DNA of 43,052 nt, taken from contig CANPYZ010000022.1 in assembly GCA_947589035.1 (NCBI GenBank), forward strand, positions 1 through 43,052, given 5' to 3'. Position numbers and translations under genes: made by a program. Of the stretch, positions 29,093 to 43,052 are shown in pieces (position 1 is the first letter of the stretch; the number at the start of each line of letters is the position of its first letter). Under the pieces are notes generated by a model. That model worked only from the letters and a program-made list of their open reading frames with translations. It ran no database searches and was not told where the DNA came from. The stretch is from an uncultured Clostridia bacterium (GTDB lineage Bacteria; Bacillota; Clostridia; Oscillospirales; Ruminococcaceae).

Positions 29093-29101
29093 TACGCAAT
29101 A

Positions 29102-29242
29102 CCGTTACTGAATATTAATTTTTTCCTTGTTCAACGTGTCCATTTTCAAGAAAATTTCTCTATTCATGCTGGCTTGACACTCCGAAGGCGTAAATTCCCC
29201 GATTTCCTACGGGTACACATGATATTTAAACTAAATATCATG
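29102..29242 (-). mobile_element. TnpB-element remnant (3' end / omega-RNA-like) inside the S10 operon
   Basis: The 209-base gap between rplD and rplW, in an operon whose other gaps are mostly under 30 bases, contains a block matching the tnpB-type element at the right edge of the window. A 23-base stretch at 29177-29199 is identical to 43005-43027, and the similarity runs from about 29123 to 29220. In the operon direction one frame reads EFTPSECQASMNREIFL and ends TLNKEKINIQ stop, in line with the other copy (EFTPSECYTKRE, TLNKE): apparently the C-terminus of a TnpB, but cut off by a stop upstream. A 4-bp stem with 8-base loop at 29198-29213 is kept in the other copy (43026-43041) with two compensated base pairs. 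A perfect 11-bp stem (CATGATATTTA / TAAATATCATG, 29218-29242) lies at the rplD-proximal end and resembles a left-end palindrome. It looks like an internally deleted, non-autonomous derivative. Confidence 0.65.
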
Positions 29243-29301
29243 CCAGTAACATTTCCTTTCTTACTGATTTGCCAGATTTATTCGCTATTATTCGCTAACG
29301 T

Positions 29302-29928
29302 TCAATCTTTCCAGTAATCTTCAATTTTCGCAATGGCATTCTTCGCTACAATGAATTTTCCGCCGTTGAGAATGTCATATACGTTAAGTGTGCCAACATG
29401 CGTTGCCTTTACTCCAGGAATGTTTGCTGCACTCTTATACACTTTCTGGTCTGCATCTGCTGTAACAATTAATGCTTTCTTTTCTACGCCGAGAGCCTTC
29501 AGCATTGCAATAATTGTTTTCGTTTTATATTCGTCCATTGTCAACGTATCCAGAACAATTAAATTTCCTTCCAATACTTTCTGGGAAAGTGCGGATTTCA
29601 TTGCTAATTTACGAACTTTTCTATTTAATGTGTATCTGTAACTTCTCGGTTTCGGTCCGATAGCTACACCACCATGTCTCCACTGCGGCGCACGAATGGA
29701 ACCTTGTCTTGCGTTGCCAGTTCCTTTCTGTCTCCACGGCTTCTTTCCGCCGCCTCTAACTTCTGTACGGGTTAATGTGGACTGTGTGCCTTGACGCTGA
29801 TTTGCCAGATAATTGACAACGACTGCGTGCATCACGGAAACATTCGGCTCAATTCCAAATACTTCATCAGCAAGTTCTGTCTGTGAAATTTCAGTACCTG
29901 CCATATCATATACTTTAACAGTTGCCAT
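29302..29928 (-). CDS. rplD: 50S ribosomal protein uL4
   Basis: 208 residues. RQGTQSTLTRTEVRGGGKKP and WRQKGTGNARQGSIRAPQWR form the long loop that lines the exit tunnel. uL4 is known in Escherichia coli to repress its own S10 operon by acting on the leader; whether it does so here is unknown. The gene is followed by a 209-base spacer with a mobile-element remnant. Right after the stop, the short unit GCGAATAATAGCGAATAA is repeated. Confidence 0.98.
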   Translation of the reverse strand: MATVKVYDMAGTEISQTELADEVFGIEPNVSVMHAVVVNYLANQRQGTQSTLTRTEVRGGGKKPWRQKGTGNARQGSIRAPQWRHGGVAIGPKPRSYRYTLNRKVRKLAMKSALSQKVLEGNLIVLDTLTMDEYKTKTIIAMLKALGVEKKALIVTADADQKVYKSAANIPGVKATHVGTLNVYDILNGGKFIVAKNAIAKIEDYWKD

Positions 29929-31085: not shown

Positions 31086-31268
31086 CAACAGGCACACAAA
31101 AACGCATCAGGAAAGTTTTCTGAAAAAACTTCCTACCGCACCTACTGTGTCATCATTTCTTGCCGACCGGTTCCTGACCGGACATACTCCACGGAAATTC
31201 CCCGACATACCGCCGGCAACCTTCCGCTTCTGCGCATATTCGTAAATCCAATGAATTGGACTTTTTAC

Positions 31269-34050: not shown

Positions 34051-34089
34051 AAGCCGTCCGACAGAATTTCCTGCCGGACGGGCTTTTTT
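34051..34089. terminator. Terminator shared by converging genes
   Basis: A GC-rich stem (AAGCCGTCCG / CGGACGGGCTT with one bulge) followed by TTTTTTA closes the XRE gene on the plus strand. It overlaps the stop codon of the converging dockerin gene; on the minus strand the T tract is weaker (TGCATTTTTG). Confidence 0.85.
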
Positions 34090-35806
34090 ATGCAAGAATG
34101 AGTTTTTTCAGTAATGTTAAATCAAAAATATTGATTATTCCGTCATTGTTCATGTCGGCTAATGCTAATTCCGGAGCGTTTTCTTTCCCTAATAAGTAAT
34201 TTTGCAGGAAAATGGCATCTTCCACACTCCAGAGATAATCTCCGTTGAAATCGCCTTTCAATATATCTGGTTCAGTTGGTGGAATAAATTCTTCTGTTGT
34301 GGGTTCTTCTGGTTCAGTTGGTGGAATAAATTCTTCCGTTGTGGGTTCTTCTGGTTCAATTGGCGGAATCATTTCTTCCGTTGTGGGTTCTTCTTCTGGT
34401 TCAGTTGGTGAAACAGTTTCTTCTGTCGTAGCATTTTCTTCAGTTTCGGTTTCAGTTGGGGTGTTTTCTTCTTCAAGTGAATAGTAATATTCTTTCGGTT
34501 CGCCTTCCGGTTCAGTTGAAATGTAATAACAAAGCTGGTGATTCTTTTCCGTCATGCCGTAAATATAGCCTTCCTGTTTCTGTTCTTCATCTAAATCAAA
34601 AAGCCATTGCACTTGCTGATTTTCTAAACAGAAAACAGAAGTCGGTGTTGTGTAGTAAATTTTATCGCCATACACTACCGGAGAAATGAACGTTCCGCCA
34701 TAACACCAGTCTTCATCTCCAAACACATGCCACCTTGCCCATTTCGCATCTAAAGAAAGTAAATGCTCCGTTTCCGATTCCCCTGTTTCCGCATCAAATG
34801 TGCATACATCAAACCATGCTGTTGTATCGTCTTCATCTGGGTCACAGTGAATGACAAGCCATTTCCCCTGATACGGCTGAATGCTTGAATTGCAATCATT
34901 CCAGAAACCGTTCTGGTAAAAATCCGATACCGGCAATTCTTCCACCGGTGTTTCCGTACTTAATACCCAGTCTTCCGAATCATGCGAATTTTCATAGAAA
35001 TAGTCACTGTCTTTAAAGAAAAATGCATGTTCCCCTAATCCTGGGTGACCGTTCAGATAATCATCCCATGTTACGTCAACATGATACCATTTTCCCTCAA
35101 GATAAACTAAATTCCAGCCGTGGCGAATATTCGTACTTTCCACAAGCATAGAATCTATGCCCACTTTATGCAGTAATATGCCATAAAGCCATGCATACCC
35201 TTCACAAACAGCTTTCCCATTTTTTAACATTCCGTAGGCAGTATGCTGTAATTCTTCTTCTGTTGACCCGTAGCTGTATTCTGCATAATCATAATCATAA
35301 TGTTTAATTATATAATCATGCAAATATAACGCCTTTTCCACGGGTGACCAGTCTTTTTCCATTCCGGAAATAATTTCATCTATTTCCTGCATTAATCCCT
35401 GATACACTTCTTCATAATTTTCCGTTTCTAAATAAACCGGAGTAAGTTTCATTTTTCCTCTTTTCGGCACTTGATAAGTAATCATAAATCTTGATGTTAA
35501 AATGCCTACGTCCCATGCACTAATTACGCCCCTGTAAATTGCCATGACAGATTCCATTTCGTCCAGTGTCGCTGAAATGTAAACATCTTTCCCGTTCCCA
35601 ACGGAAATATAACTTTCATGTTTAGCAATCCCGTCATAAATCTGTTCAGCAATTTGTTGTGTTTCTTCTGCTGTAAATTCTCCGACTGCGCCTAAATAGG
35701 AGAAATCTATTCCGCTTTCCGCTTTTGCCTGAAACATTCCTCCATATACACTTAACATACTTAATGCTAAAATCCCTGCTGTGAATTTTTTCAGTTTGTT
35801 CAGCAC
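34088..35806 (-). CDS. Secreted transglutaminase-like protein with dockerin
   Basis: 572 residues if started at the GTG at 35806, which has AAAGGAAG about ten bases upstream and gives a clean signal peptide (MLNKLKKFTAGILALSMLSV to about residue 29). A TTG at 35812 and an ATG at 35827 are alternatives. The transglutaminase-core domain (about 130-260) holds the triad: Cys201 in GKAVCEGYAW, His229 in IRHGWNLVYL and Asp244 in WYHVDVTWDD. A beta-rich part follows to about 445. A Thr/Glu/Pro linker has three near-identical 14-residue units. The C-terminal dockerin has two complete calcium loops (GDFNGDYLWSVED and ADMNNDGIINIFD). Such proteins in ruminococci may act as proteases or cross-linkers on the cellulosome; the reaction here is not proven. 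Confidence 0.92.
   Translation of the reverse strand: MLNKLKKFTAGILALSMLSVYGGMFQAKAESGIDFSYLGAVGEFTAEETQQIAEQIYDGIAKHESYISVGNGKDVYISATLDEMESVMAIYRGVISAWDVGILTSRFMITYQVPKRGKMKLTPVYLETENYEEVYQGLMQEIDEIISGMEKDWSPVEKALYLHDYIIKHYDYDYAEYSYGSTEEELQHTAYGMLKNGKAVCEGYAWLYGILLHKVGIDSMLVESTNIRHGWNLVYLEGKWYHVDVTWDDYLNGHPGLGEHAFFFKDSDYFYENSHDSEDWVLSTETPVEELPVSDFYQNGFWNDCNSSIQPYQGKWLVIHCDPDEDDTTAWFDVCTFDAETGESETEHLLSLDAKWARWHVFGDEDWCYGGTFISPVVYGDKIYYTTPTSVFCLENQQVQWLFDLDEEQKQEGYIYGMTEKNHQLCYYISTEPEGEPKEYYYSLEEENTPTETETEENATTEETVSPTEPEEEPTTEEMIPPIEPEEPTTEEFIPPTEPEEPTTEEFIPPTEPDILKGDFNGDYLWSVEDAIFLQNYLLGKENAPELALADMNNDGIINIFDLTLLKKLILA
34269..34397 (-). repeat. Tandem 42-base repeats coding the Thr/Glu/Pro linker
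   Basis: Three head-to-tail copies (34269-34310, 34311-34352 and a 45-base variant 34353-34397) code for units like EEPTTEEFIPPTEP between the transglutaminase part and the dockerin. The first two copies differ at very few bases, which suggests recent duplication and likely length variation between strains. Confidence 0.85.
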
Positions 35807-35865
35807 GGTCAACACTTCCTTTCTCATTTGTCCTGATTATCGCATACAAAACTTAAATTTCCCTT

Positions 35866-40608: not shown

Positions 40609-41766
40609 TTAATTTAAGGCTTCCTGCAATGCCTGAATTTTATCCGTCCGTTCCCATGCAACATTTAAATTTTCCCGTCCGAAATGACCGTATGCTGCTA
40701 ATTTCCGGTATTGCGGTTTCCGTAAATCTAACATGTTAATAATTCCGTCCGGCGTTAAGGAAAAGACTTTTTTCACGGCATTGACTAATTTTTCTTCTTC
40801 AACTGTTCCCGTGCCGAATGTGTCCACTCTTACGGAAACAGGATTCGCTACACCAATTGCATACGCAAGCTGAATTTCGCATTTTTCCGCAAGTCCTGCC
40901 GCTACAATATTTTTCGCAATGTATCTCGCCGCATAGGCTGCACTTCTGTCTACTTTCGTCGGGTCTTTTCCGGAAAATGCGCCGCCGCCGTGACGGGCAT
41001 AGCCGCCGTAAGTGTCCACAATAATTTTTCTTCCAGTTAATCCGCTGTCACCTTGAGGACCGCCTACCACGAAACGCCCTGTTGGATTGATGAAAATTTT
41101 CGTTTCCTCATCCATGAGTTCTTCCGGAATGACAGCATCAATGACTAATTCTTTAATGTCTTCCCGAATTTGCTGGATTGTGACATCTGGCGCATGTTGC
41201 GCTGAAACAACTACTGCATCAATCCGGACGGGCTTATTCTCGTCATCATATTCCACAGTGACTTGTGTTTTTCCGTCCGGTCTTAAATAACGTAATGTGC
41301 CGTTTTTCCGGACTTCCGTCAAACGAATTGCCAATTGATTAGCTAAAGAAATTGGCATCGGCATCAGTTCCGGCGTTTCCTTGCACGCATAGCCGAACAT
41401 CATTCCCTGATCGCCTGCACCAGTTTCCTGTGTGTCATAGGATTCATTCACACCCCGGGCAATGTCCGGTGACTGTTCGTCCATAGCAATCAACACATTG
41501 CACGTGTGTCCGTCAAACCCGAATTTCGCCCTGTCATAACCAATGTCTACAACGACTTGCCTTGCTATGGCGGAAATGTCTAAATCTGCCTTTGTGGAAA
41601 TTTCCCCCATGCACATAATCATTCCGGTTGTAGTAACAGTTTCGCAAGCTACCCTTCCGAACGGGTCTTGTTCCAGAATCGCATCTAATATAGCGTCTGA
41701 AATCTGGTCACAAATTTTGTCCGGATGTCCTTCTGTTACGGATTCTGATGTAAATACTCTTTTCAT
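40609..41766 (-). CDS. metK: S-adenosylmethionine synthetase
   Basis: 385 residues from the ATG at 41766, seven bases after [26 protein letters not shown] holds the ATP/methionine-binding His; [12 protein letters not shown] and [19 protein letters not shown] (the phosphate-binding loop) are present. The enzyme makes SAM from ATP and methionine. Control is by a SAM-I riboswitch with its terminator upstream, a classical arrangement in Firmicutes: high SAM stops transcription. A 59-codon ORF follows directly and appears to be cotranscribed. Confidence 0.99.
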
Positions 41767-41804
41767 GCAATTTCCCTCCATTTATTCCTGAAACGTTTCT
41801 GAAC

Positions 41805-41838: not shown

Positions 41839-41858
41839 CAAATTCCGTTTGCTTGATT

Positions 41859-41958
41859 CCTCATCTTCCGGTGATACCGCAGGATTTAGCACCATCAACA
41901 ATATTTGTCAGGTTGCCGGGCTTCATCGAACCTGTTTTCTCAGCCACTCTTGATAAGG
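41859..41958 (-). ncRNA. SAM-I (S-box) riboswitch aptamer
   Basis: Minus-strand landmarks appear in the right order: CCTTATCAAGAGTGGCTGAG at the 5' side, GATGAAGCCCGGCAACC, GGTGCTAAATCCTGC, and the 3' P1 strand GATGAGG, which pairs with CCTTATC (7 bp, one G-U). These are the conserved cores of the S-box kink-turn, J1/2, P3 and P4 regions. The promoter is 33 bases upstream and the terminator about 20 bases downstream. Confidence 0.97.
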
Positions 41959-41990
41959 ACGGCAAAACTTCTGTTTATGCCGTTAAGTTA

Positions 41991-42051: not shown

Positions 42052-42906
42052 TTATTTGGCGAGGAGGGCTTTTTTCATCAGAATCAAGTCAAACACGTTG
42101 ATTACTCCGTCGGGGTAGAAATCACAGCTTTCCCAATTAGGAAACTTTTCTCCGCTGAGAATAGCTCTTTGAATTGATATTACATCTGTAACGGCTAATG
42201 TTCCGTCGCCGTCAGCATCGCCTTGAACGGGGTCAGGCTTTGTTGGTTCAGAAAAATTATCAATCAGGTCAAATTGGTAACCATACTTTTCTGCATAGGC
42301 TTGTGCGGTAGAACCTGCATAACCGTATATTGTGCCGTTGTAATATTCAACATCATTATTTTCTCCATTAGCAATTGTTTCTGAACTGTCACAAATTTCA
42401 CAATCTGGATTTTTGATTGTGATAGAAGTTAAATTATCACAGTCACCAAAAGCATACTCTTCAATAGTTGTCACACTTTCCGGAATAATAACAGAAGTCA
42501 ACTGACGACAAGCAAAAAAAGCAAACTCTCCAATACTTGTCAAACCATCTGAAATGGTGACAGAAGTTAAATGTGAACAACAATCAAAAGCATATTCTCC
42601 AATATTTGTTACACTATCTGGAATCAAAAGATCTCCCTTGCAGGTTTGCCAATTCGAAGCAATAATGATAGAATTGACAATGACAAATGGATTTTCTTCT
42701 AATTGCGCATCAAGCTAAGGTGTTGACCCAAAAGCATGACTTCCAATGTTGATTACGCTTTCCGGAATTGTCACAGAAGTCAGATTGCTGCATCCGTCAA
42801 AAGCATATGCGCCAATATTGGTTACACCTTCTGAAATTGTCACAGAAATCAAACTCGCACAGTCAGCAAAAGCGGAATATCCAATTTCAGTTATGCCGTT
42901 ACTGAA
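42052..42906 (-). pseudogene. BspA-type leucine-rich-repeat protein with dockerin, broken by nonsense codon and element insertion
   Basis: One frame runs from 42906 to 42052 with LRR_5 repeats of the form VTIPESVTNIGEYAF..C, then a spacer (NGTIYGYAGSTAQAYAEKYG) and a C-terminal dockerin (GDADGDGTLAVTDVISIQR and FYPDGVINVFDLILMKKALL). An in-frame TAG at 42715-42717 interrupts it; the context GSTP-stop-LDAQLEENPF suggests an original TGG (Trp), a single G-to-A change. The 5' side ends at 42906 where a tnpB-type element begins, so no start or signal peptide is present here. A short product from the ATG at 42627 could be made but would lack a signal peptide. In ruminococci such LRR-dockerin proteins are thought to bind or sense carbohydrate or host surfaces. 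Confidence 0.85.
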
Positions 42907-43052
42907 AACTTATAAAAAGTTGTAAAACAAACTTTTATGTTCCATTCCTTGTTCAATGTGTCCGCTTTTGAAATCGCAAGCAATTTCTACTCACGTTTGG
43001 TATAACACTCCGAAGGCGTAAATTCCCGACTAACGTATCGGTACACATCTGC
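42907..43052 (-). mobile_element. 3' end of a tnpB-type element, with right-end hairpin, running off right edge
   Basis: The stretch matches the remnant in the S10 operon (identical 23-base block, 43005-43027). A near-perfect stem (ATAAAAAGTT 42912-42921 with AACTTTTAT 42930-42938) near the LRR junction looks like a right-end palindrome. The preserved CCGA/TCGG stem at 43026-43041 and the closeness to a tnpB 3' end fit an omega-RNA scaffold, whose guide would be the LRR-gene sequence beyond the element's end. The element's main body lies outside the window. Confidence 0.6.
42987..43052 (-). CDS. tnpB: TnpB C-terminal tail, partial
   Basis: The last 21 codons of a frame entering from the right edge, ADVYRYVSREFTPSECYTKRE, then TAG. 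A DV-rich tail followed by EFTPSE-like residues fits the poorly conserved ends of TnpB proteins, and the same residues (EFTPSEC) recur in frame in the S10-operon copy. With so little sequence the call rests mainly on the repeat context and on the tnpB seen at the other edge. Confidence 0.45.
   Translation of the reverse strand, partial: ADVYRYVSREFTPSECYTKRE

Follow-up and report, generated by a model that had tools for sequence, protein, structure and literature searches.

The window, by which we mean the whole 43,052-nt stretch of DNA analysed here, carries rplD and rplW in an operon headed by an S10-Clostridia ribosomal protein leader (31160-31240, minus strand). Between the rplD stop (29302) and the rplW ATG (29092), both on the minus strand, lies a gap of 209 bases (29093-29301). 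The features in and around this gap, and those at the two edges of the window, are all on the minus strand and are given below with the basis of each assignment.

29302-29928, minus: rplD (L4); protein match and comparison with relatives.
29274-29319, minus: left remnant of the insert, with no recognisable IS607 left end; comparison with 29 relatives and left-end pattern.
29251-29273, minus: conserved 5' block GGCAAATCAGTAAGAAAGGAAAT, with the Shine-Dalgarno (SD)-like GAAAGGA at 29254-29260; AAGG in the 16 nt before the helix at 39/39 loci, and alignment.
29244-29250, minus: 5' arm of the closing helix, GUUACUG; alignment and pairing.
29216-29243, minus: hairpin P2 behind the 5' arm; 8/8 pairs vary, 7 of them changed on both sides.
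29201-29210, minus: interior of the 5'-flank stem-loop, GTAGGAAATC, where other copies hold CGUUA for PK2; loop comparison.
29123-29188, minus: RAGATH-18 core; Rfam RF03064, 56.5 bits.
29104-29110, minus: 3' arm of the closing helix, CAGUAAC, which is the right end of the element; alignment and pairing.
29093-29103, minus: 11-nt spacer to the rplW start, where the guide would start in a working reRNA; guide position from sections of PMC11061315.
28760-29092, minus: rplW (L23); protein match.
42898-43052, minus: right-edge RAGATH-18 copy (core 42945-43016, right end 42898-42904), running off the window; Rfam match.
3-434, minus: TnpB N-terminus, cut by the window edge, its left end preceded by GGGGGG; HTH_OrfB_IS605, PF12323.

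The initial annotation had described the gap as holding sequence shared with the right edge of the window, and this is borne out by 23 consecutive identical bases and by longer similarity (51 nt at 78% identity plus 24 nt at 88%). A covariance-model search against known RNA families, which it had proposed as a check, assigned both copies to RAGATH-18, the gap copy (29123-29188, minus strand, hence in operon direction) with 56.5 bits and an E-value of 1.2e-8, and the right-edge copy (42945-43016, minus strand) with 72.6 bits and 8.2e-13, both above the gathering score of 44.9. In IS607 TnpB systems, RAGATH-18 serves as the guide-RNA (reRNA) scaffold, as described in sections of PMC11061315. The initial annotation was thus right in seeing, between rplD and rplW, an element that lacks tnpB and carries such a scaffold, and right about its direction and origin, and the TnpB that it had placed at 1-434 does carry an N-terminal HTH_OrfB_IS605 domain. 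The small stem that it had found compensated between the two copies (CCCG/CGGG against CCGA/TCGG) exists, with double changes at its fourth pair in 6 of 44 related sequences. The extent first given to the element (29102-29242) was too short, the conserved part spanning 29273 to 29090, at the rplW start, and the inserted block, by comparison with relatives, reaching up to about 29319.

In the window, rplD ends in a new, insert-derived C-terminus (..EDYWKD) in place of the ..EEV(F/Y)A of its relatives; the native rplW SD is lost, and 11 nt separate the right-end CAGTAAC from the rplW ATG. With a length of about 216 nt, the insert is too short to hold a tnpA serine recombinase. The IS607-like left-end pattern was not found within 330 nt upstream of the helix, and no TnpB match was found in the 1450 nt upstream of the copy. 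Its 5'-flank loop lacks the CGUUA/GTTA that would pair with the 3' UAACG as PK2, the position of PK2 on these letters being our own mapping. At 42052-43052, the right-edge copy adjoins a leucine-rich-repeat/dockerin gene that it seemingly interrupts. Elsewhere in the window, a SAM riboswitch (41858-41959, minus strand) lies upstream of an ORF (40609-41781) that is metK by eye, and the ORF at 34088-35827 holds four 42-nt direct repeats (34266-34436).

The origin of the gap was sought in related genomes, 41 of which were searched and 35 of which gave a match; junctions were fetched at 30 loci including that of the genome itself, i.e. from 29 relatives. The insert is absent from the rplD-rplW junction in 29/29 relatives, in all of which the aligned rplD and rplW ends lie between -1 and 8 nt apart. 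A general rplD-rplW spacer is therefore rejected, and we likewise see none of the conservation in genera without tnpB that the initial annotation had set as the outcome speaking against it. In every one of the 29 relatives, a GAGGAGG inside the rplD end is the SD of rplW, and this motif contains AGGAG, the TAM of IS607 TnpB; in sections of PMC11061315, the TAM is given as 5'-AGGAG in 18 of 22 strains and 5'-GAGGG in 4. The empty site is accordingly what an IS607-type insertion behind an AGGAG-like TAM calls for, and in the relatives it continues, after AGGAG, with a near match to the would-be guide of the window copy.

The host genome, that of a Ruminococcus-like bacterium (2.41 Mb, 72 contigs), holds 33 RAGATH-18 matches, 32 of them above the cut-off, most of which sit behind tnpB or an IS607-like left end. 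There are 17 matches to the TnpB C-terminal domain, 15 of which lie 55-83 nt upstream of a RAGATH-18 match; the two without a nearby RAGATH-18 are at C3:84226-84441 and C44:16630-16845. The left-end pattern matched 23 times in the fetched stretches of the host genome, with about 19 true left ends by eye, and GAGG, AGGAG, GGGG or AAGG occurs within the preceding 16 nt in 20 of the 23. Young non-autonomous copies, with both left and right ends present, are located between an SD-like motif and an AUG.

Three copies of the host genome, before rplW, rplK and hpf, and many in its relatives share a 5' block of the form GGCAAATC..AAGAAAGGA..GTTACTG, and a fourth host-genome member, with an eroded core, stands before glgB. 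The window copy is thus a guide-RNA scaffold, as annotated, and is more than the trimmed element proposed, being a member of a class with the layout SD-GUUACUG-[RAGATH-18]-CAGUAAC-N(3-15)-start codon. A pattern making no demand for SD or start codon found 37 loci in 84,980 genomes, and with loci from other sources the class comprises 40 unique loci, one of which is cut by a contig end, leaving 39 testable; most were found by a pattern that fixed GTTACTG. In all 39, the 16 nt 5' of GTTACTG contain AAGG and CAGTAAC is followed at 3-15 nt by a start codon (38 ATG and 1 TTG), and none of them has a TnpB match upstream within the available 727-1500 nt; since the copies share descent, these 39/39 counts are not independent. 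A covariance model built from 18 members and run on 38 genus genomes separated 19 class loci (at least 156 bits) from other copies (at most 145.5), with a few diverged members scoring lower. The 5'-block-only pattern gave 30 matches in 38 genomes (20 known leaders by our count and 10 others) against 19 for the reversed control.

Beyond the genus, the model search was positive in 8 of 396 genomes across the family and in 5 of 394 across the order, with L356-L358, among the new loci of the latter (L355-L360), being without the SD-helix layout. The records matched by the pattern were named Ruminococcus, Oscillospiraceae, Clostridia, Synergistaceae/Synergistales/Fretibacterium and Selenomonadales. 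The occurrence of the class in metagenome records bearing the Synergistaceae, Synergistales, Fretibacterium and Selenomonadales names (L183, L193, L194, L196, L200 and L214) suggests transfer between phyla, binning errors being possible. A phage home of the class was considered and rejected, as the specific pattern matched 0 viral contigs and the looser viral pattern was too unspecific.

The genes behind the class include rplW, rplK, rplS, rplJ, rplT, rpsH, rpsA, efp, ffh and glgB, among others. Of the 39 downstream proteins, 31 were scanned against NCBIfam, with glgB taken once; 25 matched at an E-value of 1e-5 and 6 had no match. Seven ribosomal proteins (L23, L11, L19, L10, L20, S8 and S1) were matched, as well as HPF, EF-P, SRP54, dTMP kinase, FabF, chorismate synthase, GlgB, GlgC, glycogen phosphorylase, UppP, SpoVG and a DivIVA-domain protein; some of these matches (dTMP kinase, UppP, S1 and others) did not reach the curated cut-off, in part owing to the truncation of proteins at 350 aa. 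By eye, we further recognised L15 (L170, L145), another L20 (L226) and another chorismate synthase (L227). The same layout recurs in a second reRNA clade of 6 loci (L100, L108, L111, L120, L126 and L136) with the helix GCUACU/AGUAGC, which includes a G-U in L100 and is degenerate in L136, and here the downstream genes include L35 (rpmI), recA, accA, an EF-G-like gene and glgB.

Proximity to start codons is a wider property. Among the other RAGATH-18 copies, which are defined by exclusion from the SD-helix class, an ATG opening an ORF of 60 aa or more lies 4-17 nt past the right end in 41/64 (4 of the 68 copies, without a recognised right end, being left out) against 249/3200 random positions, which argues for an insertion preference not special to the SD-helix class. 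Six of the 41 are the second-clade class, leaving 35/58, and 23 of these 35 were scanned for gene function, purA, ispG, grpE, nusB, leuD and ribBA being among the genes found. In the host genome itself, RAGATH-18 precedes the starts of purA (L007), ispG (L013), grpE (L017) and nusB (L020) without the SD and the closing helix. Of the 68 other copies, some of which have little upstream sequence, 34 are preceded by a TnpB match within 1500 nt.

What sets the class apart is the position of the SD. Just before the start codon (-20 to -1), the anti-SD energy of the 39 element genes has a median of -3.0 kcal/mol, close to the -2.1 of random 20-mers, and is weaker than -4 in 35/39; the corresponding median in 16 element-free glgB orthologues (4 of 20 such loci being unscored) is -11.25 kcal/mol. 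In the 16 nt before the helix, the anti-SD energy is -5.9, at or below -4 in 39/39, against a median of -1.0 for random 16-mers, the SD of the 5' block being only moderate, given that 5% of random 16-mers reach -6.1. The weak site before the start and the SD in the 5' block together indicate that the SD has shifted to the opposite side of the RNA.

The two sides can be joined by the closing helix GUUACUG/CAGUAAC, all 7 pairs of which are possible in 43/43 sequences (one further sequence being cut). Compensatory changes occur in L226 (GUUACCG/CGGUAAC) and in L227 (GUUACCA/UGGUAAC), the latter having lost most of its RAGATH-18 core, so that the covariation of the helix comes from two sequences. 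For the structure as a whole, changes on both sides were counted in 127 cells, compared with 37.9 in shuffles, in an alignment fitted to the model and therefore biased towards it. Of the other RAGATH-18 copies, 58 have 120 nt or more of upstream sequence, and in none of these does it contain the complement of the right end. With the helix formed, the SD-AUG distance would be about 12-19 nt. RNAfold gave the closing helix a probability above 0.5 in 22/39 class loci and of about 0 in the window copy, for which a hairpin CAGUAA/UUACUG with the SD in its loop was favoured; the same hairpin wins in 14/39.

The closing helix outlasts other parts of the element, being present also in copies in which the TnpB pseudoknot, the left end or the core of RAGATH-18 has decayed. 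The GTTA of the PK2 loop is kept in 33/34 other copies against 25/39 class copies (Fisher p 0.0004; 3 loops unparsed), and it is lost at rplW; PK2 pairing mutants are described in sections of PMC11061315 as impaired in complex formation ("data not shown"). A leader precedes glgB at 10 of the 30 genus loci viewed, and 8 of these 10 form a single clade of 8 species (support 100/98), in which identity is 100% in the helix arms and 92% in the SD block, and elsewhere 63% in the upstream flank, 63% in P2, 72% in the core, 33% in the 3' flank and 87% in the coding sequence. Selection seems to bear on SD, helix and spacing more strongly than on the core of the guide RNA, which is itself not exempt from it.

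On this evidence from sequence, we propose that the rplD-rplW spacer is probably an IS607-type element, old, without tnpB and apparently no longer mobile, and that its RAGATH-18 guide RNA now forms a split ribosome-binding site. The empty sites and left-end flanks show that IS607-type elements tend to insert behind an AGGAG-like motif and, as such a motif is both TAM and SD, insertion parts a gene from its SD. One class brings its own SD (GAAAGGA) directly 5' of GUUACUG, and the pairing of GUUACUG with CAGUAAC, to which the layout, the pairing potential and the compensatory changes point, would loop out 150-200 nt and place this SD near the AUG. It would then be this helix-juxtaposed SD that 30S subunits use, and rplW in the window may be translated via the split site. 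That the fold of the relic can place its SD near the rplW start is seemingly the reason for its retention. The moderate strength of this SD, the remaining distance of about 12-19 nt, the competing hairpin favoured by folding in the window copy and the core genes that stand behind other RAGATH-18 copies lacking SD and helix weigh against this reading.

A neutral leftover, in which rplW is translated weakly or by coupling to rplD and the spacer has no role, appears unlikely. The core genes behind RAGATH-18 copies without SD and helix show that cells may cope with such insertions; against this, the SD in 39/39 loci and the helix in 43/43 sequences are retained also where the remainder erodes. As regards a split ribosome-binding site, an added function as a switch would be a rather speculative and improbable extension, in which translation is on when GUUACUG pairs with the 3' CAGUAAC, the alternatives being the 5' CAGUAA hairpin or PK2, and in which the binding of TnpB or another protein sets translation. 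The pairing options for it are present, namely the 5' CAGUAA with the SD in the hairpin loop in some copies, and the 3' UAACG with the CGUUA loop where the latter is kept. If true, a transposon guide RNA would have turned into a riboregulator of the host translation machinery, covering ribosomal and glycogen genes.

It is quite improbable that the spacer is instead a guide supplier or retention device, i.e. that the S10 mRNA spacer is processed to an reRNA with the rplW start as guide, directing a TnpB from elsewhere to cut element-free alleles. The RAGATH-18 core is kept, the AGGAG at the empty site of the relatives precedes a sequence close to the would-be guide, and TnpB genes are many in this genome; set against these are the PK2 loop missing at rplW and in 14/39 of the class, the lack of a TnpB within 1450 nt upstream, and a core that in the glgB clade is less conserved than SD and helix. 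The abundant omega-RNA supply put forward in the initial annotation is accordingly less supported, as the loop GTAGGAAATC has no PK2 partner CGUUA, and its other suggestion, a spacer kept for regulation, has become the better lead, given that the class keeps SD, closing helix and start-codon spacing. From the lost PK2 loop, the TnpB guide function has probably been lost in the window copy, for which a role in rplW translation is more likely than one as an abundant guide RNA.

Reinitiation at the gene start after a short upstream ORF (AAGGAATG near the RNA 3' end) is very doubtful: AGGAATG occurs in 25/39 elements, and in some glgB copies the frame ends at or overlaps the gene start by eye, yet AGGAATG is missing in 14/39, the window copy included. 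A leader peptide starting at the SD-helix joint was rejected, as a start codon lies there in only 19/39. An IStron-like intron, spliced from the mRNA so as to restore the native SD, is hardly credible, since removal would restore the site for young copies between an SD-like motif and an AUG, but would restore none for the rplW copy, whose native SD is lost, and the covariance models matched only RAGATH-18 in 10 loci at E up to 0.1; this result and the Rfam search of the window led us to reject any other Rfam family or a group I intron.

In the open-access literature searched, we found no paper linking RAGATH-18 or the IS607 TAM to Shine-Dalgarno sites, and the words "Shine", "ribosom" and "start codon" are absent from the main text of PMC11061315. 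If a split ribosome-binding site is indeed what the class forms, an IS family whose TAM is the Shine-Dalgarno sequence would have a branch that brings a replacement SD and a gene-sparing fold, and with these an element could settle before essential genes. At the same time, a TnpB guide RNA would have been domesticated for translation initiation with the nuclease gone. The class layout would provide a search model for further cases.

Among known systems, non-autonomous TnpB-family elements (MITE- or PATE-like) have left and right ends without transposase or tnpB, and the young copies described here resemble them in this; unlike them, the class carries a replacement SD, which old copies keep after the loss of the left end. 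TldR proteins are reportedly RNA-guided repressors derived from TnpB, protein and guide RNA acting in trans, and they share with our case the host use of a TnpB-derived system, whereas here only the RNA is kept, in cis. With the IS607 TnpB reRNA, as described in sections of PMC11061315, the window copy has in common the RAGATH-18 core, the 5'-flank stem, the right end and the TAM-like motif at the empty site. That reRNA adjoins the 3' side of tnpB, whereas the window copy has no tnpB upstream, has lost the PK2 loop, and adds a 5' SD block and a closing helix, lying between SD and start codon. The nearest parallel in layout is given by T4 genes 38 and 25, proven split sites in which, according to sections of PMC3014915, a structure between SD and AUG gives a working distance. 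The likeness lies in a structured RNA that separates SD from AUG and would shorten the distance between them; the T4 structures are short and local (22 to 5 nt, 27 to 11 nt), whereas here a transposon-derived RNA of 150-200 nt stands before many genes. From the equal layout, we infer that the rplD-rplW leader may work by the same mechanism as the sites of T4 genes 38 and 25.
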